Origin: Klebsiella oxytoca
GTDB taxonomy: Bacteria; Pseudomonadota; Gammaproteobacteria; Enterobacterales; Enterobacteriaceae
Reading direction: 5' to 3'
Length of the DNA stretch: 64,000 nucleotides
Assembly: GCF_009707385.1 (NCBI RefSeq)
Contig: NZ_CP046115.1
Location: 2,480,001 to 2,544,000, forward strand
The notes under the pieces are model-generated. The model had not been told where the DNA came from. It worked only from the letters and a program-made list of their open reading frames with translations, and made no database searches. Shown in pieces: positions 16,739 through 30,015 of this stretch. The stretch's first letter is position 1, and each line of letters starts with the position of its first letter. Made by a program: the position numbers and the translations under genes.

Positions 16739-17496
16739 TTGCTTAACCCTAATTACGTTATGAGAATGTTAATTTTCTTCGAAGCACGTTATATCTCATT
16801 CCAAATTAAAGGTCATTACGAACAACATCCGATTCCGTCATTATTAAAATGTTTCATATAGCATCAGCGATTTTTATCTCTTCCATAGCTAAAAATCCAT
16901 TGCAAGCGTTTGATATGAAAACAATAATATTCAGGTCGATATCCTGCGGTATTCGCATTTAAAGGGAAGAACAGGCTTAAGACATCCGCTTCTGGCATAT
17001 AGCTGCCAGACTCAACAAAGCCAGGGTTTGCAATGAGGAGGAGCGGGCCTTCAATGATGTGTATCAGACTCTCTTTTACATTCCGGCCAGAGATGTTATC
17101 GGGAGAGCATGACAGTACGGATGAATACCTGTGACGATTTTGGTTGTATTGCCTGCACGGGAAACGATGGTGTTGCAGTATGCAGCGCGCGGGAGTCTGA
17201 TTCCCACCATATCCCGTATGAAACATTGTATGAGGTATGAAGAGGCGGAACAAAGTCCATGGAAGCTGGATATGAGAATGCTGCAAAATGTCAGCATGCG
17301 CTAAGATCTCATCTTCCTGCCGATTTTCTTCACTGGAAGGAGAGGGAGTACCGCTCGTTTCACTCGGTTAATAACATTTACCTTGAAAGCATTATTTTTC
17401 TGTTGCATCTATTTAATAGTTAATTCAGGATGGTTTTTGTCGTCGACGGCTACTATGTATATAAAATGGTGAAATATTGACGCAAAGGGATTTTAT
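16739..17496. other. AT-rich stretch between the Asd paralogue and the TrmO-like gene
   Basis: 758 bases without an intact gene. The first 120 bases would hold the asd-paralogue promoter. The middle contains a possible frameshifted minus-strand gene (separate entry). The last 100 bases, AT-rich and ending in AAAGGGA before the ATG at 17497, hold the start region of the TrmO-like gene. Confidence 0.6.
16864..17260 (-). pseudogene. Possible frameshifted gene, family not recognised
   Basis: Minus strand. One frame opens at 17260 (MDFVPPLHTSYNVSYGIWWE...) and ends ...SSQVFIRTVMLSR at a stop at 17096-17098. The protein-like reading then continues in a second frame as RNVKESLIHIIEGPLLLIAN and ends KRLQWIFSYGRDKNR at a TGA at 16864-16866. 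The two overlap at about 17100, so a one-base shift would join them into about 130 residues. No ribosome binding site is obvious and I do not recognise the family. It could also be chance open frame. Confidence 0.3.
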
Positions 17497-17967
17497 ATGA
17501 AAGAAATTAATCTGTACGCAATAGGTAGAATTACTTTGGCTGATGATAAAGTAAAAATCATTCTGCATCCTCCTTACCGTTCTGGTTTAAAAGGAATAGA
17601 AGGCTATAGTCATGCTACTCTATTATGGTGGTGTGATGGTTGCGATGATAAATCGTCTCGTCAGACTGTTATTACATCAACTCCTTATACTGAAGATGAA
17701 ATGGGAGTATTTGCTACTCGCTCTCCGCAAAGACCGAATACAATAGCGATTACAACAACAGAAATATTGCATGTTGATTTAAACGCTGGATTGCTCATTG
17801 TATCCTGGATTGATGCGGAAAATGGTAGTCCAGTTATAGATATTAAACCTTACATTCCCAGTTTAGATCGTGTCGAAAATCCCATAACCCCTGGGTATTT
17901 ATCTGGCTGGCCCAGTTCTTTAGAAAAGTCTGCTGATTTTGACTGGTCTTCAGTTTTAACTTATTGA
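17497..17967 (+). CDS. Short TrmO/TsaA-family protein
   Basis: 156 residues, preceded by AAAGGGA. It matches the TsaA (TrmO) beta-barrel domain: GYSHATLLWWCDG near 45 and the hallmark GVFATRSPQRPNTIAITTTEI near 85, usually GVFATRSPxRPNPIG. E. coli TrmO (235 residues) methylates N6 of t6A37 in tRNA-Thr with SAM. This protein lacks the C-terminal domain of that enzyme and carries T-I-A-I-T after the signature rather than the usual P-I-G-L-S. It may therefore be a small paralogue with a different substrate. It sits alone in an AT-rich accessory region beside the second Asd. Confidence 0.75.
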   Translation: MKEINLYAIGRITLADDKVKIILHPPYRSGLKGIEGYSHATLLWWCDGCDDKSSRQTVITSTPYTEDEMGVFATRSPQRPNTIAITTTEILHVDLNAGLLIVSWIDAENGSPVIDIKPYIPSLDRVENPITPGYLSGWPSSLEKSADFDWSSVLTY

Positions 17968-18416
17968 TAAAGCCGGAAACCCATATCTCAATCACAAACC
18001 TCTTCCATGAGCGGGATAGAAAGTTTTATCCGTAATGCTTTATATTATTGAACAGGCTTTGTTGAATAATTCAGGGTTAGCTGACAAGATGTCTCATGTA
18101 TATATCGTGAATGCACGAGGGCTTATCCCTGTCCCCTATGGGGTGGGGATCTGCTGTTGCAAAATACTGGCGTAGAGATAGCGAACAATATTGGATCCGC
18201 TCAGTATCACTGCCACACCTGCATAGGCTCGTCCATCATACGTGAGCGGCTGGAAGCCTGGAGCAGGCGGTGCTGCGCTGTCGCCGTATCGTGGTCCAGG
18301 TTTGTACGGGCTGCCATTTCCTGCTTTTCCCGGAATCTCAAGAAAACAATAAACATGCTTGATTATGCCAGAAAATATTAAATAGCATATTCAGGCTTCC
18401 TTGCCCTTGTCTCTCG
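17968..18416. other. Gene-free stretch with IS-end and plasmid-like debris
   Basis: 449 bases between the TrmO-like gene and the ThDP-enzyme stop. It contains an IS903-type terminal repeat (18055-18072) and a 49-codon minus-strand frame (18207-18356, with motif REKQEMAARTNLDHDTATAQ) that looks coding-like but has no partner or ribosome binding site. The rest holds nothing I can identify. It reads as a scar of former mobile DNA. Confidence 0.5.
18055..18072 (+). mobile_element. IS903/IS5-family terminal inverted repeat remnant
   Basis: GGCTTTGTTGAATAATTC matches 16 of 18 bases of the IS903-type end (ending AATAAATC) as I recall it. No transposase gene and no second end are visible nearby, so only a solo end remains. 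Confidence 0.45.
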
Positions 18417-20063
18417 TCAATCATTAAACTGCGGGTGGAGAAATTTCCACGGGTTGCTGTCGCTGCCGCGCGCTACCGCTACTTCAATTAACACCGGTTT
18501 ATCAGCGGCGAATGCTTGTTCCAGCGCCTGGCGCAGCATTTGCGGCGTAGTGACACGTATCCCCTGCACGCCGAAAGCTTCAGCGAACTTCACGAAATCC
18601 GGATTTACCAACTCAGAACCAATAAAACGGCCGGCGAAGCTCTGCTGCTGATCGCGGTAAACATTGCCATAAGACTGGTTATTGAATACCACGGTGACCA
18701 GATTAATGTTGTACTGCACTGCCGTTGCCAGCTCCTGAGCGGCAAACATAAAACCACCATCGCCGCAGATAGACAATACCGCTATGCCGGGATTGGCTAC
18801 TTTAACCCCCAGCGCCGTCGGGAAGCCGTAACCGAGAGTTCCCTGATGGCCGGAGGATATAAAAGTGCGCGGCTGGTACATCGGTAAACCAAAGATAGCG
18901 GTAAATCCGACCTGTGATACCTCGTCAATGAAGATCCCATCGCGCGGCAGTACTTCGCGAATTGCCTGTAAATAACTGACCTGCGGCTGGATTTTCTTAA
19001 TGGCTGCGGCGGCGATTTCTTTGGTTTCCGCCAGCGTCTGGTCGCGTCGCGGTGGTGTCCCGGTTGCGCTAACAGCGCTAATCAATGCCCGGGCGCCGTC
19101 AGACGCATCGCTGATGATATTGATATCTGCCTTCAGGCGTCGCACTTCGCCGGCATCAATATCAATGCGAATAATTTTCAGCCCCTGAGGACGGTAATTC
19201 CAGCGAATATCCAGCAGCTCAAAGCGTGAACCGATCACAATCGCCACATCGGTCTGCGGCCAGAGACGAGCCCCGGAAACCACGTTGAACCCCAGCGGAT
19301 GATCGTCAGCCATAATCCCACGGCCGCCGCGGAAACTGACCACCGGCGCGCCAAGAGTTTCGGCCAGCGCCCTCACTTCCGGCGCTGCATCTGAAGCACC
19401 GCTGCCGACAAATATCATCGGCGCCCGGCAGTTCTGGAGAAGTTTCGCTGCCGCGTCGACAGCATCAGTATCTACCGGCGGTTTCGGTTTCTGCGCCAGC
19501 GGCGCAACACCATCCACCCGCGCCGTACGGGTGAAGAAATCCCATCCCGCCTGTAGCGCCACCATCCCTTGTCTGCCGGATGTCATCTCCTGAAACGCGC
19601 GGGCAACCAGCCACGGCGCGTCGCAGGGCTGCTCAATGTGGGCACTCCATTTTCCGATATGGCCGAGGATATCAAGCTGACGTGGTAGCTCATGTAGTTG
19701 ACCGCGCCCACGGTCTTTGTAAGCCGATTCGACATCGCCGGTCAGAGCCAGTACCGGCGCGTTACAGCCGTGGGCGGTTAACAGTGCCGCACTGGCGTTA
19801 AGAATACCAGGCCCCGGGACAACGGCGCATACCCCGGGTTGTCCGGTGGATCGGGCATAACCGTAGGCCATATAGGCGCTGGTTTGTTCATGCCGGGCGC
19901 CAATCGTGCGAATTGCCTGTCTGTTGCGCGCTAAGGCATCGGTCAGGCCATAAATTTGCGCGCCGGGTAAGGCAAACACAGTATCCACATGGTGGTGTTT
20001 CAGGCCATTAACGATAGCATCTCCGCCCGTCATATGCTGCGGCGTATTCTGGTCATTATTCAT
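18417..20063 (-). CDS. Thiamine-diphosphate-dependent enzyme, acetolactate-synthase-like
   Basis: 548 residues from MNNDQNTPQHMTGG; the GAGGAT seven bases upstream favours this start over one six codons earlier. It has the three-domain ThDP fold. The N-terminal PYR domain carries the activating glutamate in RHEQTSAYMAYGYAR. The central domain has GSRFELLDIRWNYRP. The C-terminal PP domain has the GDG...NN motif as ICGDGGFMFAAQEL to VVFNNQSYGNVYR. Family members decarboxylate 2-oxo acids or condense them; sequence alone does not choose between acetolactate synthase, benzoylformate or indolepyruvate-type activities. No small regulatory ALS subunit is adjacent, which argues against a biosynthetic AHAS. 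Its neighbour is a same-strand LysR gene, with aromatic-catabolism genes beyond it. Confidence 0.85.
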   Translation of the reverse strand: MNNDQNTPQHMTGGDAIVNGLKHHHVDTVFALPGAQIYGLTDALARNRQAIRTIGARHEQTSAYMAYGYARSTGQPGVCAVVPGPGILNASAALLTAHGCNAPVLALTGDVESAYKDRGRGQLHELPRQLDILGHIGKWSAHIEQPCDAPWLVARAFQEMTSGRQGMVALQAGWDFFTRTARVDGVAPLAQKPKPPVDTDAVDAAAKLLQNCRAPMIFVGSGASDAAPEVRALAETLGAPVVSFRGGRGIMADDHPLGFNVVSGARLWPQTDVAIVIGSRFELLDIRWNYRPQGLKIIRIDIDAGEVRRLKADINIISDASDGARALISAVSATGTPPRRDQTLAETKEIAAAAIKKIQPQVSYLQAIREVLPRDGIFIDEVSQVGFTAIFGLPMYQPRTFISSGHQGTLGYGFPTALGVKVANPGIAVLSICGDGGFMFAAQELATAVQYNINLVTVVFNNQSYGNVYRDQQQSFAGRFIGSELVNPDFVKFAEAFGVQGIRVTTPQMLRQALEQAFAADKPVLIEVAVARGSDSNPWKFLHPQFND

Positions 20064-20298
20064 ATTAAGATCCTCATTCATGATTAGCGGCTGGTGAATG
20101 GCACGTAATGCACTTCCATATGCTCTCTGACTGATGAGTAAACTCCGTTATTAAATAAATAATCAGGCTTCCTGATGTCCTTTTGATAATTAATTTGCGG
20201 CGCTAATGGTGTGGTAAAAAATACTTCTCCGGATATCTGTTATTACGTTAGCAGTCATCGGCACCGGCGAACATGTCGGCCCGGGAATAGTTGCCATG

Positions 20299-21243
20299 TC
20301 AATATGACATGTTTTGACTCCCGGGATTTAACGAGGCCGACGCCTGACAGTGCTGATAGACAAATTGCCGAAACCACTGATGTTCCGGGGAGTTATGAGT
20401 TCGGCGGTGCCAGACAACCCAATAGCGAAAACGCCAGGTGGCGAAATCCAGTGGCCGCCAGGTTAATGGCCGTGTTCCAACACTGTGCTCCAGTAAATAT
20501 CGGGGAATGGTTAACAGGTTGTCCGATTGCGCGGCCACGTCCAGCGCGGCGGAGAAAAACGGCACCGACAGACGAATGACCCTGCTGACCTGTTGCTGCT
20601 TCAGGTAATTATCAATAAAACCGTCTTTATCACCGCCGCCGCTAATTTTGATATGCGACCAGTTAAGATAATCGCTAAGGGTAATTTTTTCCGCGTTGGC
20701 AAGTGAGTGATCGCTACGTAAACAACAGACTGGAATATCATCGCCGATGATTCGGCCATGAAATTCCGGCGGCGCATCTTCAACCAGCGTGGTGGCGAGG
20801 TCCACCTTACCGCTGGACAGCCAGTCGTAACGATTGGGTTGCCAGGTCAGATAATCAATGCAAACCCCTGGCGCGACTTGCCTCAGGTGACGGATTAAGT
20901 CCGGCAGAATGTGTGTGGCGACATAATCGGAGGCCGCAATGGAGAACCGGCGGGTACAACTCCCGGGATCGAAGATCAACGGCTGCGCCAGCGAGTCGAG
21001 ATTTTGTAATATCTGGCTCAGCGGGGTGAGCAGCGCACTGGCTTTATCCGTTAACAGAAACTGTTTCCCCTGACGAACCAGCAACGGATCATCAAAGGCA
21101 GCACGATAATGGGCTAACTGGCGACTGAGGGCCGACTGGCTGCTGCCCATGGTCGCGGCAGCGTGGGTCAGGTTGCGCTGTTCAAGAATAACCAGCAGGG
21201 TTTTCAACTGGATAATACTCAATGAGGAAAACAGTGAATTCAT
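20299..21243 (-). CDS. LysR-family transcriptional regulator
   Basis: 314 residues from MNSLFSSLSIIQLKTL, with GAG six bases upstream; an ATG eight codons earlier is also possible. The N-terminal winged helix reads LVILEQRNLTHAAATMGSSQ followed by SALSRQLAHYRAAFDDPLLV. The effector domain follows (about 90-300), with SIAASDYVATHILPDLIRHL. It lies between the ThDP enzyme (same strand, 235 bp downstream) and the divergent dioxygenase-remnant/HpaX pair, so it probably controls one or both; the effector could be an aromatic acid (inference from context only). Confidence 0.85.
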   Translation of the reverse strand: MNSLFSSLSIIQLKTLLVILEQRNLTHAAATMGSSQSALSRQLAHYRAAFDDPLLVRQGKQFLLTDKASALLTPLSQILQNLDSLAQPLIFDPGSCTRRFSIAASDYVATHILPDLIRHLRQVAPGVCIDYLTWQPNRYDWLSSGKVDLATTLVEDAPPEFHGRIIGDDIPVCCLRSDHSLANAEKITLSDYLNWSHIKISGGGDKDGFIDNYLKQQQVSRVIRLSVPFFSAALDVAAQSDNLLTIPRYLLEHSVGTRPLTWRPLDFATWRFRYWVVWHRRTHNSPEHQWFRQFVYQHCQASASLNPGSQNMSY

Positions 21244-21615
21244 GCGTTTCTCGCTTTCGCTTATCATTAGTTAAACCACAATGTCCTCATTTTTATCGCA
21301 GGCCAATACTATTAATATGTTAATAATATGGTATGGATCACAAATCAGAGAAGTTGTTTTTTTGCGCATTTATTAGATGATTTGATAATGCAATGAAATT
21401 AAACATTATTTTATCTTTACATCCCTTCGCCTTGCCCGGATTACTTTAAAATAAACTGCTTGATATCGCCGGGATAAAGGCTTAAATAAATAAAATGTTA
21501 ATATATTAATAAAACCATAATAAACCTCTGGGCAAGTGTCCGCGGCTGGCTGTGGCCTGTCGCCGTGGTGCAAATTGCGCTGATATGCACATCGATAACC
21601 CTGAGAGACCCTACA
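21244..21615. promoter_or_regulatory. Divergent promoter region between LysR regulator and dioxygenase-like gene
   Basis: 372 bases, AT-rich near the LysR start and GC-rich near 21540-21600. It must hold both divergent promoters and the LysR operator; I could not pick out a convincing T-N11-A dyad or a clear -35/-10 pair by eye. Confidence 0.45.
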
Positions 21616-22290
21616 ATGACGATTGAAAATGTAATAGCCGCTGTACCGGCACCGGATATTTTGCGCTGTGCTTATATGGAGATACAGGTTACCGACCTGC
21701 GGGCCGCCCGCGAATTCTATGTCGATATTCTCGGCCTGACGGTCACCGCAGAGGACGACCAGCATATTTACCTGCGCTCCATTGAGGAGTTTATTCACCA
21801 TAACCTCGTTCTGCGCCAGGGGCCTATTGCCGCCATGGCGGCCTTCTCTTTCCGGGTGCGTAGTCCGGAAGATGTCGACAGGGCTGAGGCCTGGTTCCGG
21901 GCTCGGGGATACCGGACCGAGCGCCGCAAAGAAGGATTCACCCGCGGGATAGGCGATTCCGTACGCGTTGAAGATCCGCTCGGCTTCCTACGCGATCCTG
22001 ACGGCCATCGTATTGAGATCTACACCCAGGACTACTACACCGGCGATCCGGACAACCCGGTGATGGGCTGGGGTATTCACGACAACCAGCGCCGCGACTG
22101 GTGGGGTAATCCGGTGGTCGCGAGCTGGTATACCGAAGGCTCACTGGTTATGGATCTGGATGGCAACCCCCAGCCGGTCACAGAGCGCAGCGAGCCGAGC
22201 GAAATGGCGGTCACTATCGGTGCCGATGGTTTCTCTTACACCCGTAAAGACGATGTTCTGGAAGGTTTCCGGCTCGGCAACAGCCTGTAA
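21616..22290 (+). CDS. Internally deleted homoprotocatechuate 2,3-dioxygenase-like protein (VOC family)
   Basis: 224 residues. The N-terminal 124 match the first VOC module of homoprotocatechuate (3,4-dihydroxyphenylacetate) 2,3-dioxygenase: SVPAPDIVRCAYMEI-like start, LRSIEEFIHHNLVLRQGP, TERRKEGFTRGIGDSVRVED. After PLGF (F124, about 21987) the sequence jumps to RDPDGHRIEIYTQDYYTGDP and the normal C-terminal tail (HDNQRRDWWGNPVV ... DGFSYTRK). The full-length enzyme has about 365 residues, so about 140 are missing in frame. In the Brevibacterium enzyme the metal ligands are His155, His214 and Glu267; both histidines fall in the missing part and only the glutamate (here Glu134) remains. Ring-cleaving activity is therefore unlikely. 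The start has no strong ribosome binding site. An HpaX-like permease follows 17 bases later. Confidence 0.85.
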   Translation: MTIENVIAAVPAPDILRCAYMEIQVTDLRAAREFYVDILGLTVTAEDDQHIYLRSIEEFIHHNLVLRQGPIAAMAAFSFRVRSPEDVDRAEAWFRARGYRTERRKEGFTRGIGDSVRVEDPLGFLRDPDGHRIEIYTQDYYTGDPDNPVMGWGIHDNQRRDWWGNPVVASWYTEGSLVMDLDGNPQPVTERSEPSEMAVTIGADGFSYTRKDDVLEGFRLGNSL

Positions 22291-22307
22291 CGGTCAAGGA
22301 GAGAAGT

Positions 22308-23681
22308 ATGTCAACATTAGCTCAATCTGCGCAGGAGAATCACGCGACGGCCGATGAACAGCGGGTAATGAGTAAGCTGTTCCGCCGCCTGGTGGCGTTC
22401 CTGTTCGTTTTATTCGTATTCTCCTTCCTGGACCGCATCAATATCGGTTTTGCCGGGTTGACCATGAGCCAGGATCTGGGGCTGACCTCCACGATGTTTG
22501 GCCTTGCCGCGACGCTGTTTTACGTCACCTACGTGCTGTTCGGAGTGCCGAGCAATATTATGCTCAGCCGGGTTGGGGCACGGCGCTGGATCGCCGTCAT
22601 TATGGTGGTCTGGGGCGTGGCGTCTACCTGTACCCTGTTTGCCACCAGCGCCGGTACGCTGTATGCGCTACGTATGATTGTCGGTGTTGCTGAGGCTGGC
22701 TTTGTGCCGGGTATTCTGCTGTATCTCACCTGGTGGTTTCCGTCCTGGTATCGGGCCCGCGCCAACGCGCTATTTATGATCGCTATGCCGCTGACGATGA
22801 TGTTCGGATCGATGCTTTCCGGCTATATTCTGGCGCTGGACGGGGTGATGAACCTCAGGGGCTGGCAATGGTTATTCCTGCTGGAAGGGCTGCCGTCGGT
22901 GATCCTTGGCGTAGTGACCTGGTTTTATCTTGATGATAAACCGGCGGATGCAAAATGGCTGAACGCTGATGAAAAACAGACTCTTCAACGGATGATGGAA
23001 AGCGATCGCAGCGTCAACCGGAAGATGTTGACCTCCCGGCCCGTTTCGCTGTGGCGCGAAATTTTTACCCCGGTAGTAGTGCTCTATATTCTCGCCTACT
23101 TCTGCCTCACTAATAGTCTCAGCGCCATCAATATCTGGACGCCGCAAATCCTCAAAAGCTTTAATGTCTCCAGCAGCAATATTACCGTCGGTCTGTTGGC
23201 GGCGATCCCCCAGTTTTGCACCATCGTGGTGATGATGTGGTGGAGCAAACGTTCCGATCGCCTCAAGGAACGTAAGCGTCATACAATCTACCCTTACCTG
23301 TTTTCCGCCGCTGGCTGGCTGCTGACATCGCTGACCGCACATCCGCTGATTCAGTTGTTGGGTCTGATAATGGCCTCAGCCGGAGCATTCACCGCCATGA
23401 CGCTGTTCTGGACTACGCCCGATCGGGCGATCAGCGTCGGCGCTCAAGCAGTTGTGCTGGCGACTATCAGCGGCGCGGGCAATATTGGCTCCGGGCTTAG
23501 CCCACTGCTGATTGGGGTAATTCATGATATGACCGGGAATTTTAATGCCGGCTTGTGGTTTATGGCTGGGTTACTGATTATCGGCGCGCTGGTACTGGCA
23601 TATATACCAATGGGCGGGGTGCAGGCGGCGACCAAAATCGTCTGCGATAAGCCCGTCGGCCGTCGGCCCTTCTGGCAGTGA
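22308..23681 (+). CDS. MFS transporter, HpaX-like (4-hydroxyphenylacetate permease family)
   Basis: 457 residues, about 12 membrane segments, of the anion:cation symporter branch of the MFS. Family signs are FSFLDRINIGFAGLTMSQDL in the first segment, LTWWFPSWYRARANALFM in the loop after segment 4, and GWQWLFLLEGLPSVILG. It resembles HpaX, which imports 4-hydroxyphenylacetate in enterobacterial hpa clusters. It starts 17 bases after the dioxygenase-like gene with GGAGAGAAGT as ribosome binding site, so the two are co-transcribed. It appears intact, unlike its partner. The substrate is inferred, not shown. Confidence 0.82.
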   Translation: MSTLAQSAQENHATADEQRVMSKLFRRLVAFLFVLFVFSFLDRINIGFAGLTMSQDLGLTSTMFGLAATLFYVTYVLFGVPSNIMLSRVGARRWIAVIMVVWGVASTCTLFATSAGTLYALRMIVGVAEAGFVPGILLYLTWWFPSWYRARANALFMIAMPLTMMFGSMLSGYILALDGVMNLRGWQWLFLLEGLPSVILGVVTWFYLDDKPADAKWLNADEKQTLQRMMESDRSVNRKMLTSRPVSLWREIFTPVVVLYILAYFCLTNSLSAINIWTPQILKSFNVSSSNITVGLLAAIPQFCTIVVMMWWSKRSDRLKERKRHTIYPYLFSAAGWLLTSLTAHPLIQLLGLIMASAGAFTAMTLFWTTPDRAISVGAQAVVLATISGAGNIGSGLSPLLIGVIHDMTGNFNAGLWFMAGLLIIGALVLAYIPMGGVQAATKIVCDKPVGRRPFWQ

Positions 23682-23732
23682 TTCGCCGCCGGACCAATCA
23701 CAGCGGTATCGGTCAGCGCAGGGAACGCGCGC

Positions 23733-24319
23733 TTAACCGTTCTCCTGGCGGACATACAGATACGCCGTCGCCCGGGAGATGCCGAGATGCTGGGCCACGG
23801 TGTCCATAGACTTACGTAATGCCTGAATTAAGGCTTTGCGGTCAGCAACGTTGAGCGCTCTGGCCGTGGTCGTGCGCTTTGCCGCATAGCTGTCGATGCG
23901 CTGGCGAATGGCTTCGGAACCGGTAGCCGGCTCAAGATGTTCGACCACCGCACTGCTTTCAATCTCCGTGAACTGCGCCAGAGCGCTCTGTATTCCCGAA
24001 ATAGCGTGATATCCACATTCAGGCACAGGGCGGCGACATATTTACCACTGCTGTCTTTAATGCCGATGGAGGCGCTCTTTACCGGCCGGCCATCCGCAAA
24101 CTGGTTGGCATAGTTAGCAATAATACTGGGGAAGTCTGGTGACGCAATACGCGCCAGTCCCAGCTCGGTAGCCGGCTGTAATCCGACACGTCTCCGCCAG
24201 ATATGGGACGAATACCAGGCATCACAGAGCACGGTCGTCACTGAACCGGTTGCCGAGCTGCCCGTGGAAGTGGCTGAAGTAGTGAATGCAGCCTCCGCCG
24301 CGCTGTCCGAACGCATCAT
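23733..24319 (-). pseudogene. Decayed YheO/DauR-type regulator (PAS_6 + HTH)
   Basis: The C-terminal part (23733 to about 23990) is a clear YheO-family helix-turn-helix: ADRKALIQALRKSMDTVAQH then LGISRATAYLYVRQENG. The PAS-like part reads in another frame upstream: ATELGLARIASPDFPSIIAN and KSASIGIKDSSGKYVAALCL then NVDITLF. The two frames switch in TTTCGGGAATAC around 23990-24000, a frameshift. Before about 24230 the N-terminal sequence is no longer family-like. Normally these are about 220-residue regulators that respond to small metabolites. It lies 51 bp beyond the HpaX-like gene, convergent to it, and may once have controlled that operon. Confidence 0.65.
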
Positions 24320-24379
24320 GGGTGGATAGCCTGAGCCACGTAGCCCGATCCTCCGCTACGCCCGCCATCAGGGCTTTCA

Positions 24380-24883
24380 ATTTCGCCGCTGATTAAAGAG
24401 CTCGTCGACCGCTTAACGATAGAGGAGGTTGATTATCCGGCGGAGAGCCATGTCGGCCGATTGATCAGAGTGACGCTCGATGAACTTGCCGCCATGCCGC
24501 AGCAGAAATTAAGCCTGCCGGTTTCGGCGCACCCTAAGATCCGCGCTATGGCGGATGCGCTGGTCAGCCACCCGGAGGATCGCAGTACCTTTAAAGTTTG
24601 GGCGAAACGGCTGGCACTCAGCGAGCGCTCATTAGCCCGCCTGATGCTGCGCGAAACCGGGCTGACCTTCGGGCGATGGCGTCAGCAGCTGCATTTGATT
24701 ATTGCCCTGCGGGAGCTGGCAAGCGGGGTATCGGTGCAAAACGTGGCGGCTAATCTGGGCTATGAGTCGGTAAACGCGTTTATCACTATGTTCAGAAAAA
24801 CGATGGGCAGCACGCCCGCGCACTATTTTGCCGGTCGAAGAACGGCGGATCCCGCAGTGATGCCTGTCCTTGATAAGGCGTGA
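24380..24883 (+). pseudogene. 5'-truncated AraC-family regulator (NimR-like C-terminal half)
   Basis: The frame reads ISPLIKELVDRLTIEEVDYP from about 24380 without a start codon, then LIRVTLDELAAMPQQKLSLP, and a complete AraC-type DNA-binding domain: WAKRLALSERSLARLMLRET and VAANLGYESVNAFITMFRKT ending GSTPAHYFAGRR. The cupin-like N-terminal half (about 100 residues) expected for this family is missing; the upstream DNA belongs to the decayed YheO gene. A TTG at 24461 could initiate a 140-residue C-terminal fragment. Most likely a deletion joined two regulator genes head to head. Confidence 0.6.
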
Positions 24884-25663: not shown

Positions 25664-26839
25664 ATGAGCCTGCAAAAAACCTGGGGTAAGTTTCATCTGA
25701 ATGCGTCGGGAGCAATGTTACTCTCCGTGCTTCTTGTCGGGTGCGATCAGGGTGTCGCGCAAAACGCCGCGCCGCAAGCTCCCGCCGTCAGCGCCGCTGA
25801 CGTGGTGGTGAAATCCATTAGCCAGTGGGATAGCTTTAACGGTCGAATTGAAGCGGTGGAAAGCGTTCAGCTCCGTCCCCGCGTCTCAGGCTACATTGAT
25901 AAAGTGAACTACACCGATGGCCAGGAGGTGAAAAAGGGCGAGGTACTGTTCACCATCGACGACCGCACCTATCGCGCTGCGCTGGAGCAGGCGCAGGCGA
26001 CGTTAGCCAGAGCCAAAACGCAGGCCAGCCTGGCGCGCAGCGAGGCTAACCGTACCGATAAATTAATCAATACCAACCTGGTATCTCGTGAAGAATGGGA
26101 GCAGCGGCGTTCCGCCGCCGCCCAGGCCCAGGCCGATATTCGCGCAGCGCAGGCGGCGGTAGATGCCGCACAGCTTAACCTTGATTTCACCAAAGTGACC
26201 GCGCCGATCGATGGCCGCGCCAGCCGTGCGCTGATCACCAGCGGTAATCTGGTGACCGCGGGCGACAGCGCCAGCGTGCTCACCACGCTGGTCTCGCAGA
26301 AAACGGTTTATGTCTATTTTGATGTCGATGAGTCGACCTATCTTCACTATCAACATCTCGCCCGCAGCGGACAGGGGGCGTCCAGCAATCACCAGGCGCT
26401 ACCGGTAGAGATTGGTCTTGTTGGCGAGGAGGGCTATCCCCATCAGGGCAAAGTGGATTTTCTTGATAATCAGTTAACCCCGAGTACCGGCACGATCCGC
26501 ATGCGCGCGCTGCTGGATAACGCCCAGCGTCAGTTCACGCCGGGACTCTTTGCCCGCGTCCGCCTGCCGGGCAGCGCTGAATTCAACGCCACGCTTATCG
26601 ACGACAAGGCGGTGCTGACCGATCAGGATCGCAAATATGTCTATATCGTTGATAAAGAGGGGAAAGCGCAGCGTCGCGATATCACCCCGGGGCGTCTGGC
26701 CGCCGGTTTACGCATTGTGCAGAAGGGGCTGAATCCCGGTGATAGAGTCATCGTCGATGGTTTACAAAAAGTGTTTATGCCGGGGATGCCGGTTAACGCT
26801 AAGACCGTTGCCATGACCGCCAGCGCCGCCCTCAACTGA
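25664..26839 (+). CDS. oqxA: OqxA, periplasmic adaptor of the OqxAB RND efflux pump
   Basis: 391 residues, the length of OqxA. Lipoprotein signal with lipobox LLVGC (Cys27). Membrane-fusion-protein order: barrel-sandwich hybrid start SVQLRPRVSGYIDKVNYTDG, the long alpha-hairpin with ARAKTQASLARSEANRTDKL, then VTAPIDGRASRALI and the beta-barrel (TIRMRALLDNAQRQFTPGLF). It bridges OqxB to an outer-membrane channel (usually TolC). OqxAB exports quinolones, olaquindox, chloramphenicol and others. oqxB follows after 23 bp. Confidence 0.97.
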   Translation: MSLQKTWGKFHLNASGAMLLSVLLVGCDQGVAQNAAPQAPAVSAADVVVKSISQWDSFNGRIEAVESVQLRPRVSGYIDKVNYTDGQEVKKGEVLFTIDDRTYRAALEQAQATLARAKTQASLARSEANRTDKLINTNLVSREEWEQRRSAAAQAQADIRAAQAAVDAAQLNLDFTKVTAPIDGRASRALITSGNLVTAGDSASVLTTLVSQKTVYVYFDVDESTYLHYQHLARSGQGASSNHQALPVEIGLVGEEGYPHQGKVDFLDNQLTPSTGTIRMRALLDNAQRQFTPGLFARVRLPGSAEFNATLIDDKAVLTDQDRKYVYIVDKEGKAQRRDITPGRLAAGLRIVQKGLNPGDRVIVDGLQKVFMPGMPVNAKTVAMTASAALN

Positions 26840-26862
26840 TCCCTTTTCTGAGAATCCGACAC

Positions 26863-29800
26863 ATGGACTTTTCCCGCTTTTTTATCGACAGGCCGATTTT
26901 CGCCGCGGTACTGTCGATTCTGATTTTTATCACCGGCTTAATTGCTATCCCGCTGCTGCCGGTGAGCGAATATCCTGACGTAGTACCGCCAAGCGTGCAG
27001 GTGCGCGCGGAGTATCCCGGCGCCAACCCGAAGGTGATTGCCGAGACCGTGGCGACGCCGCTGGAGGAAGCAATCAACGGCGTTGAGAACATGATGTACA
27101 TGAAATCTGTCGCCGGATCTGACGGTGTACTGGTGACCACCGTCACATTCCGTCCGGGTACCGACCCGGATCAGGCGCAGGTTCAGGTACAAAACCGGGT
27201 GTCGCAGGCCGAGGCGCGTCTGCCGGAAGATGTGCGCCGTCTGGGAATTACCACTCAGAAACAATCGCCGACGCTGACGTTGGTGGTGCATCTGTTCTCG
27301 CCCGGCGGTAAATACGACTCCCTGTATATGCGTAACTACGCCACGCTAAAAGTGAAAGATGAACTGGCGCGTCTGCCCGGCGTCGGCCAGATTCAGATAT
27401 TTGGCTCGGGCGAATACGCGATGCGCATCTGGCTGGATCCGAATAAGGTGGCGGCACGCGGGCTGACCGCCTCGGATGTGGTCACGGCGATGCAGGAGCA
27501 AAACGTACAGGTATCCGCCGGCCAGCTTGGCGCCGAGCCGCTGCCGAAGGAGAGCGATTTCCTGATCTCCATTAATGCCCAGGGGCGTCTGCACACGGAA
27601 GAAGAGTTTGGCAATATTATTCTGAAAACGGCGCAGGACGGCTCGCTGGTACGCCTGCGCGACGTGGCGCGCATTGAGATGGGTTCCGGCAGCTACGCCC
27701 TGCGTTCCCAGCTAAACAATAAAGATGCGGTAGGTATCGGTATTTTCCAGTCGCCGGGGGCAAATGCTATCGATTTGTCTAACGCGGTGCGCGCAAAAAT
27801 GGACGAGCTGTCGAAACGCTTCCCGCAGGATATGCAATGGGCGGCGCCTTACGATCCAACGGTTTTTGTTCGCGACTCCATTCGCGCGGTGGTGCAAACG
27901 CTGCTGGAAGCGGTGGTGCTGGTAGTGCTGGTAGTGATCCTGTTTCTGCAAACCTGGCGCGCGTCGATTATTCCGCTGATCGCGGTACCGGTATCGGTGG
28001 TGGGCACCTTCAGCATTCTGTACCTGCTGGGCTTTTCACTAAACACGCTGAGCTTGTTCGGCCTGGTGTTGGCTATCGGGATCGTGGTAGATGATGCCAT
28101 CGTGGTAGTAGAAAACGTCGAGCGAAACATCGAAGAGGGGCTGGCTCCGCTTCAGGCGGCTCATCAGGCGATGCGTGAAGTTTCCGGGCCGATTATCGCC
28201 ATTGCGCTGGTTTTGTGTGCGGTATTCGTGCCAATGGCGTTTCTCTCCGGCGTCACCGGCCAGTTCTACAAGCAGTTTGCGGTGACGATCGCGATTTCTA
28301 CGGTGATCTCCGCCATCAACTCGCTGACGCTCTCTCCGGCGCTGGCGGCTTTATTGCTAAAACCGCACGGCGCGGCGAAAGACTTTCCGACCCGGCTTAT
28401 CGACCGCCTGTTTGGCTGGATATTCCGTCCTTTTAACCGCTTTTTCCATCGCAGCTCAAACGGCTATCAGGGGCTGGTGGGCAAAACGCTCGGCCGACGC
28501 GGCGCGGTGTTTGCCGTCTATTTACTGCTGCTCTGCGCCGCAGGCGTGATGTTTAAAGCGGTACCCGGCGGGTTTATTCCGACGCAGGATAAGCTCTATT
28601 TAATTGGCGGCGTGAAAATGCCAGAAGGCTCGTCGCTGGCGCGCACCGATGCGGTGATCCGCAAAATGAGCGAAATCGGGATGAATACCGAAGGCGTGGA
28701 TTATGCGGTCGCTTTCCCGGGGCTTAATGCGCTTCAGTTTACCAATACGCCGAATACCGGGACGGTCTTTTTCGGCCTGAAACCGTTCGATCAGCGTAAG
28801 CACTCGGCGGCGGAAATTAACGCGGAGATCAACGCGAAAATCGCCCAAATCCAGCAGGGCTTTGGTTTCTCCATCCTGCCACCGCCGATTTTAGGCCTGG
28901 GTCAGGGTTCCGGTTATTCGCTGTATATCCAGGATCGCGCTGGCCTTGGCTACGGCGCGCTGCAAAACGCGGTGAACACCATGTCCGGTGCGATAATGCA
29001 GACGCCGGGGATGCATTTCCCTATCTCAACCTACCAGGCTAACGTTCCGCAGCTGGATGTGCAGGTCGATCGTGATAAGGCGAAAGCGCAGGGCGTGTCG
29101 CTGACCGAGCTGTTCGGTACGCTGCAAACCTATCTGGGCTCATCGTACGTAAATGACTTTAACCAGTTCGGCCGCACCTGGCGAGTGATGGCGCAGGCCG
29201 ACGGACCGTTCCGCGACAGCGTGGAGGATATTGCCAATTTGCGCACCCGGAATAATCAGGGTGAAATGGTGCCAGTCGGCAGTATGGTGAATATCAGCAC
29301 CACCTACGGCCCGGATCCGGTGATTCGCTACAATGGCTATCCGGCAGCGGATCTGATTGGCGATGCCGATCCTCGTATCCTCTCGTCAGCGCAGGCGATG
29401 ACGCAGCTGAGCGCGATGTCTAAGCAGATACTGCCGAACGGGATGAATATTGAATGGACCGATCTGAGCTTCCAGCAGGCCACGCAGGGCAATACGGCGC
29501 TGATTGTCTTCCCGGTGGCGGTTCTGCTGGCGTTCCTGGTGCTGGCGGCGCTGTACGAAAGCTGGACCCTGCCGCTGGCGGTGATCCTGATCGTGCCGAT
29601 GACCATGCTCTCCGCGCTGTTCGGCGTCTGGCTGACCGGCGGCGATAACAACGTGTTCATGCAGGTGGGTCTGGTGGTTCTGATGGGGCTGGCGTGTAAA
29701 AACGCCATTCTGATCGTCGAGTTTGCCCGCGAGCTGGAAATTCAGGGGAAAGGGATCATGGATGCGGCGCTGGAGGCGTGCCGCCTGCGTTTACGCCCGA

Positions 29801-30015
29801 TTGTGATGACCTCCATCGCCTTTATTGCCGGGACCATTCCGCTGATCCTCGGCCACGGCGCGGGTGCCGAAGTGCGCGGCGTCACCGGCATCACGGTGTT
29901 CTCCGGGATGCTGGGCGTGACGTTGTTTGGTCTGTTCCTGACGCCGGTGTTTTACGTAACGCTGCGTAAATTCGTCACGCGCGGTAAACCGGTGAAGGAC
30001 GTTGTGCCTGCGTAG
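26863..30015 (+). CDS. oqxB: OqxB, RND multidrug efflux transporter
   Basis: 1050 residues, full length for OqxB. Inner-membrane HAE1-type RND pump: FFIDRPIFAAVLSILIFITG as first membrane segment, two large periplasmic loops, and the proton-relay motif GIVVDDAIVVVENVERNI in segment 4. The second half begins near GRRGAVFAVYLLLLCAAGVM and ends with LVVLMGLACKNAILIVEFAR and IPLILGHGAGAEVRGVTG. It extrudes drugs from the periplasm or inner-membrane outer leaflet through OqxA and an outer-membrane factor. No outer-membrane gene is in the operon. A rho-independent terminator follows. Confidence 0.97.
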   Translation: MDFSRFFIDRPIFAAVLSILIFITGLIAIPLLPVSEYPDVVPPSVQVRAEYPGANPKVIAETVATPLEEAINGVENMMYMKSVAGSDGVLVTTVTFRPGTDPDQAQVQVQNRVSQAEARLPEDVRRLGITTQKQSPTLTLVVHLFSPGGKYDSLYMRNYATLKVKDELARLPGVGQIQIFGSGEYAMRIWLDPNKVAARGLTASDVVTAMQEQNVQVSAGQLGAEPLPKESDFLISINAQGRLHTEEEFGNIILKTAQDGSLVRLRDVARIEMGSGSYALRSQLNNKDAVGIGIFQSPGANAIDLSNAVRAKMDELSKRFPQDMQWAAPYDPTVFVRDSIRAVVQTLLEAVVLVVLVVILFLQTWRASIIPLIAVPVSVVGTFSILYLLGFSLNTLSLFGLVLAIGIVVDDAIVVVENVERNIEEGLAPLQAAHQAMREVSGPIIAIALVLCAVFVPMAFLSGVTGQFYKQFAVTIAISTVISAINSLTLSPALAALLLKPHGAAKDFPTRLIDRLFGWIFRPFNRFFHRSSNGYQGLVGKTLGRRGAVFAVYLLLLCAAGVMFKAVPGGFIPTQDKLYLIGGVKMPEGSSLARTDAVIRKMSEIGMNTEGVDYAVAFPGLNALQFTNTPNTGTVFFGLKPFDQRKHSAAEINAEINAKIAQIQQGFGFSILPPPILGLGQGSGYSLYIQDRAGLGYGALQNAVNTMSGAIMQTPGMHFPISTYQANVPQLDVQVDRDKAKAQGVSLTELFGTLQTYLGSSYVNDFNQFGRTWRVMAQADGPFRDSVEDIANLRTRNNQGEMVPVGSMVNISTTYGPDPVIRYNGYPAADLIGDADPRILSSAQAMTQLSAMSKQILPNGMNIEWTDLSFQQATQGNTALIVFPVAVLLAFLVLAALYESWTLPLAVILIVPMTMLSALFGVWLTGGDNNVFMQVGLVVLMGLACKNAILIVEFARELEIQGKGIMDAALEACRLRLRPIVMTSIAFIAGTIPLILGHGAGAEVRGVTGITVFSGMLGVTLFGLFLTPVFYVTLRKFVTRGKPVKDVVPA

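Follow-up and report, generated by a model that had tools for sequence, protein, structure and literature searches.

The window analysed here, a 64,000-nucleotide stretch of Klebsiella oxytoca DNA, contains a VOC-type (type I) homoprotocatechuate 2,3-dioxygenase gene, hpaD, that has suffered a 399-bp in-frame internal deletion (21616..22290, forward strand). This gene is very probably a spare, horizontally acquired copy that was hit by an illegitimate deletion and is now drifting as a recent pseudogene with an open frame. In the course of events that we propose, a redundant VOC-type hpaD copy would have arrived with a transferred block of genes, and the deletion would then have inactivated it. 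The remnant would since have been drifting, any product being presumably unstable or inert, and its open frame would persist through chance (one deletion in three) and recency rather than through selection.

The open reading frame at 21616-22290 encodes 224 amino acids followed by a stop codon. The chains of the solved homoprotocatechuate 2,3-dioxygenase (HPCD) structures align to it piecewise, with ORF residues 9-125 corresponding to HPCD residues 9-125 and ORF residues 124-214 to HPCD residues 257-347, and the best E-value for this two-piece match is 1.8e-96, which identifies the two proteins as homologues. The coordinates, the frame and the fusion of two HPCD segments given in the initial annotation are thus borne out, and the segment after the junction, which might have turned out to be unrelated to HPCD, is the second of the aligned pieces. 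The first 124 and last 100 residues match the VOC-type enzyme and no part of the ORF matches its middle; of the two-domain, four-module architecture of HPCD, residues 125-257 are absent. The short ORF scores 196.3 bits in two stretches against the TIGR02295 HpaD model, below the equivalog cut-off of 321.4, and the intact HpaD of Entomohabitans teleogrylli passes with 422.2 bits in a single stretch. The Pfam Glyoxalase profile is nearly complete over the fusion (profile positions 4-121 of 121 on residues 20-135).

Relative to the intact 357-amino acid E. teleogrylli hpaD (locus L008), exactly 399 bp are gone in frame, corresponding to residues 125-257 (133 residues; L008:6373-6771). The retained N-terminal part (21616..21987, forward strand) is equivalent to residues 1-124 (L008:6001-6372), the junction lies at 21987..21989, and the retained C-terminal part with the stop codon (21988..22290, forward strand) is equivalent to residues 258-357, including Glu267. 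A loss of about 140 residues including His155 and His214 had been proposed; both histidines are gone, while the size needs correcting to 133 residues. Microhomology at the junction is perfect only for CC (2 bp; CTTCC and CTACC agree at four of five positions), and homology of at least 2 bp is expected by chance with P about 0.16, which leaves little to recommend the suggestion that the deletion arose through short homology. Both DPxG motifs survive in tandem (EDPLGF-LRDPDGHRIEIY), therefore the strands were not joined in register and the junction is not a merger of equivalent DPxG strands. We also considered recombination between these strands as the source of the deletion and ruled it out, since both motifs persist and perfect identity between the parental sequences is limited to 2 bp. 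The description of the deletion as fresh fits the data better, as the intact gene is otherwise about 95% identical in another genus and the genomes and loci covered by the search yielded no further short form. Because it cuts through the active-site domain in comparison with an intact orthologue, the deletion qualifies as a pseudogene lesion, and it probably inactivates hpaD. No stop codon or frameshift is present in the rest of the short frame.

Residue numbering is the same in E. teleogrylli HpaD and the solved HPCD chains. The equivalents of His155, Asn157, Trp192, His200, His214, Arg243, His248 and Tyr257 are deleted, and those of Glu267, Tyr269, Arg292, Arg293 and Trp304 are kept. The positions listed here, His200 among them, are active-site residues of HPCD, and His155, His214 and Glu267 make up its 2-His-1-carboxylate metal site; the N-domain is not known to bear metal ligands of its own. 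Both histidines lie in the deleted stretch and the glutamate is kept, and judging from these residues a 2-His-1-carboxylate metal site cannot form at the enzyme's position in the short protein. The window protein therefore resembles VOC-type HPCD (PDB 1q0c and 1f1r; TIGR02295) in its two alignable ends and its Glu267 equivalent, but differs in lacking 133 residues, among them both histidine ligands, His200, Asn157 and Tyr257, and in falling under the NCBIfam cut-off. A role in proton transfer is described for His200 of HPCD in PMC10760822.

Structure prediction with AlphaFold gave a mean pLDDT of 51.3 and a pTM of 0.49 for the fusion, against 77.9 and 0.81 for the intact E. teleogrylli relative with the same relatives aligned. 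In the fusion model, residues 8-120 form a weaker yet recognisable domain, and residues 121-179 and 186-224 are below pLDDT 50. The deletion removes the strands that the intact model forms at 125-129, within 152-247 and over most of 254-259; the intact model also forms a strand at 265-270, and the RIEIY segment forms no strand in the fusion. The intact model is itself below pLDDT 50 at 294-299 and 338-357, thus part of the low tail of the fusion does not stem from the deletion. Each structure job used 44 sequences (43 of the 78 distinct relatives plus the window protein), and so shallow an alignment may depress the confidence for any fusion, such that the model hints at instability short of proving it. 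The initial annotation had considered a folded single-module protein conceivable. The poor model and the absent RIEIY strand offer this little support, and the nearly end-to-end Glyoxalase match slightly favours it.

The short gene sits in a putative horizontally acquired block (18304..24178) that shares gene order with the solitary hpaD-hpaX locus of E. teleogrylli at 94.5-96% DNA identity. The two loci align in two collinear pieces (94.5% and 96.1% identity) interrupted by the 399 bp in hpaD, and E. teleogrylli differs in that its own hpaD (357 amino acids) and YheO-like gene (211 amino acids) are full length. Its intact hpaD is the nearest relative of the short gene among the best 80 of 513 relatives. 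A near-identical protein was found in one of 20 genomes of the genus, the window's own, and inside the block the other 19 have just hpaX-like matches (68-73% identity) among the matches listed (the scoring took in 15 candidates for each genome). Matches at an E-value of 1e-30 occur in 7 of the 295 genomes sampled from the family, the six besides the window's own being in open frames of 385-429 amino acids; in the partly overlapping order sample, the only match among 394 genomes is again the window's own. Because of this patchy distribution and the identity to another genus, we infer that the block was acquired by transfer. Three other genus genomes encode a distant 403-amino acid two-domain VOC protein (six loci) that is about 35% identical to HpaD (36-37% in the better piece).

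The initial annotation had proposed a check for equally short homologues, and none turned up besides the window's own across the genomes and loci covered (best 80 of 513 relatives). We likewise rejected the idea that short HpaD proteins form a larger family: 3 of 103 matching loci (some of them from the same genome) have frames shorter than 361 codons, and these are the window itself, a locus (L062) whose full length is split over three overlapping pieces in different frames, and a locus (L064) that runs off the end of its contig. Carriage of the region on a plasmid was also tried as a possibility, and none of 459 matching plasmid records covers 80% of window positions 17300-24400 in one place. 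At the right edge of the block, 24160-24318 resembles a DNA-binding protein gene of Salmonella and Citrobacter plasmids (91-95% identical among the matches listed), 24318-24379 matches another genus genome (G008), and the sequence from 24380 onward is common to other genus genomes around oqxAB. The oqxAB-type efflux pump genes (25664-30015) lie in this single-contig genome and show about 88% identity to the copies of K. pneumoniae and of plasmids. To the left of the block, 17090-18303 is AT-richer (GC 0.424), has no match to the E. teleogrylli locus and includes a TrmO-like ORF (17497-17967).

The gene order common to the window and E. teleogrylli is thiamine-diphosphate (TPP)-dependent enzyme, LysR, hpaD, hpaX and YheO-like gene. 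The hpaX gene (22308..23681, forward strand) encodes a 457-amino acid 4-hydroxyphenylacetate permease that passes TIGR02332 (706 bits against a cut-off of 615) with no visible lesion, in keeping with the earlier statement that the transporter behind hpaD is intact, and the permease may still be useful. It starts 17 bp past the hpaD stop codon and is preceded by a ribosome-binding-like site (AAGGAGA). Divergent from hpaD is a LysR-type regulator gene (20299..21267, reverse strand; 322 amino acids, equal in length in E. teleogrylli), followed by the gene for the TPP-dependent enzyme, which is acetolactate-synthase-like (18417..20081, reverse strand; 554 amino acids). This enzyme accompanies LysR, hpaD and hpaX in both genomes and might supply the pathway with an aromatic acid. 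At the other end of the block lies a remnant of a YheO-like regulator gene (23736..24178, reverse strand). Compared with the 211-amino acid E. teleogrylli gene, whose product belongs to the PF08348 and PF13309 families, it has lost residues 1-54, has a frameshift near residue 115 and has an internal gap of 8 residues. A second broken gene in the same block as hpaD supports decay.

The VOC-type copy appears dispensable because an intact LigB-type HpaD is encoded in a complete hpa operon of the same genome. This operon (C1:732825-744158) has the full K. pneumoniae set of 12 genes, hpaR-G1-G2-E-D-F-H-I-X-A-B-C, including a second hpaX. Its HpaD is 97% identical to K. pneumoniae HpaD, which is a member of the LigB family (PF02900), and passes TIGR02298 HpaD_Fe (534 bits against 316). 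The LigB-type HpaD of enterobacterial hpa operons carries out the same reaction by annotation, but belongs to another family than the window protein. E. coli HpaD is assigned to the LigB-type family in PMC4250580. The hpa operon of one genus genome is a 99% match to a K. pneumoniae plasmid record. E. teleogrylli also carries both kinds, its solitary VOC copy being accompanied in the genome by a LigB HpaD. In loci of Mixta, Pantoea, Pluralibacter and Serratia the VOC HpaD lies within the hpa operon, 3' of hpaE, and a LigB HpaD was not found in the three genomes searched that have a VOC HpaD beside hpaE. Read from these gene arrangements, the VOC and LigB HpaD proteins are apparently interchangeable, with in-place non-orthologous replacement in the hpa operons of several Enterobacterales, a swap that the present case puts on display. 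Since the two can stand in for each other, the window's VOC copy would be a spare.

Substitutions were examined for signs of decay. For the outgroup, 86 matching loci were full length under stricter filters, of which 78 were distinct and 77 were used; 17 hpaX homologues gave 16 distinct sequences. Of the 11 positions at which hpaD differs from its E. teleogrylli counterpart, 4 changed in the window lineage at columns conserved in at least 97% of the 77 relatives (C99Y, D153G, V154I and L179M). By the same rule hpaX has 0 of 12 (16 relatives), and the difference between the genes has a Fisher P of 0.037 in a comparison picked post hoc. If hpaX residue 411 is counted, an invariant Ser that is altered in the window as well as in E. 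teleogrylli, the contrast shrinks to 4 of 11 versus 1 of 12 (P 0.13). Taken by itself, the asymmetry between lineages does not reach significance (4 of 6 against 0 of 2, P 0.21); this test leaves out 3 of the 11 hpaD differences (residues 9, 30 and 223), which are not polarisable. There are 12 amino acid-changing hpaD differences against 7.8 expected, a weak excess (P 0.096). The dN/dS ratio relative to E. teleogrylli is 0.27 for hpaD, 0.16 for hpaX, 0.12 for LysR and 0.15 for the TPP enzyme, and the hpaD value below 1 probably mostly predates the deletion. Among the loci searched there were no LysR or TPP enzyme homologues covering 80%, and changes in these genes are not polarisable. On these small numbers we lean towards relaxed constraint in hpaD, to which the substitution statistics point without amounting to proof.

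An open frame beside a sound transporter gene could also be read as function. The initial annotation raised the option that the shortened protein has taken on a new role, and one can picture a folded single-module VOC protein that binds or senses aromatic compounds or makes protein-protein contacts. The retained frame, the lesion-free hpaX and a new C-terminal strand that nearly completes the Glyoxalase profile speak for such a protein, but the fold is predicted poorly, with the new strand unformed in comparison with the intact control, conserved residues are altered, the 2-His metal site is gone, and the genomes and loci covered (best 80 of 513 relatives) offer no second example. With an isofunctional enzyme present and a nearby gene broken as well, we consider a new role very unlikely. 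The same low standing applies to its more specific form, in which deletion within a tandemly duplicated VOC enzyme would have left a metal-free protein of a single module, serving next to the transporter to bind or sense an aromatic acid; this we regard as highly improbable, and if true it would be a live case of reduction from two domains to one.

The frame might instead have been kept for translational coupling, with ribosome read-through being needed for hpaX expression and the peptide itself inert. The 17-bp spacing and the undamaged hpaX with its dN/dS of 0.16 would suit this reading, which nevertheless strikes us as barely credible, given that hpaX has its own ribosome-binding-like site, that another hpaX lies within the hpa operon, and that a deletion stays in frame by chance one time in three. 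An assembly or sequencing error concealing a truly full-length chromosomal hpaD is a long shot: the genome is a single contig, the junction lies outside any collapsible repeat (2 bp of homology), and a clean loss of 399 bp within unique sequence would in our judgement be an unusual error.

The locus would then be an unremarkable case of a redundant and probably transferred gene falling into decay. In the one-domain type I extradiol dioxygenases of family I.1, all three metal ligands lie in a single domain. The window protein has in common with these enzymes one VOC-type module and a length shorter than that of the two-domain enzymes, but it keeps only the Glu ligand, those at 155 and 214 being deleted. 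Family I.1 includes BphC2 and BphC3 of Rhodococcus globerulus P6, and activity is reported for them in PMC4250580. We found no literature on extradiol dioxygenases linking the single-domain form with duplication. The short gene also sets a trap for annotation, in that the ORF best matches 3,4-dihydroxyphenylacetate 2,3-dioxygenase despite the loss of both histidine ligands, and the intact enzyme of that name in this genome is the LigB-type protein encoded elsewhere.
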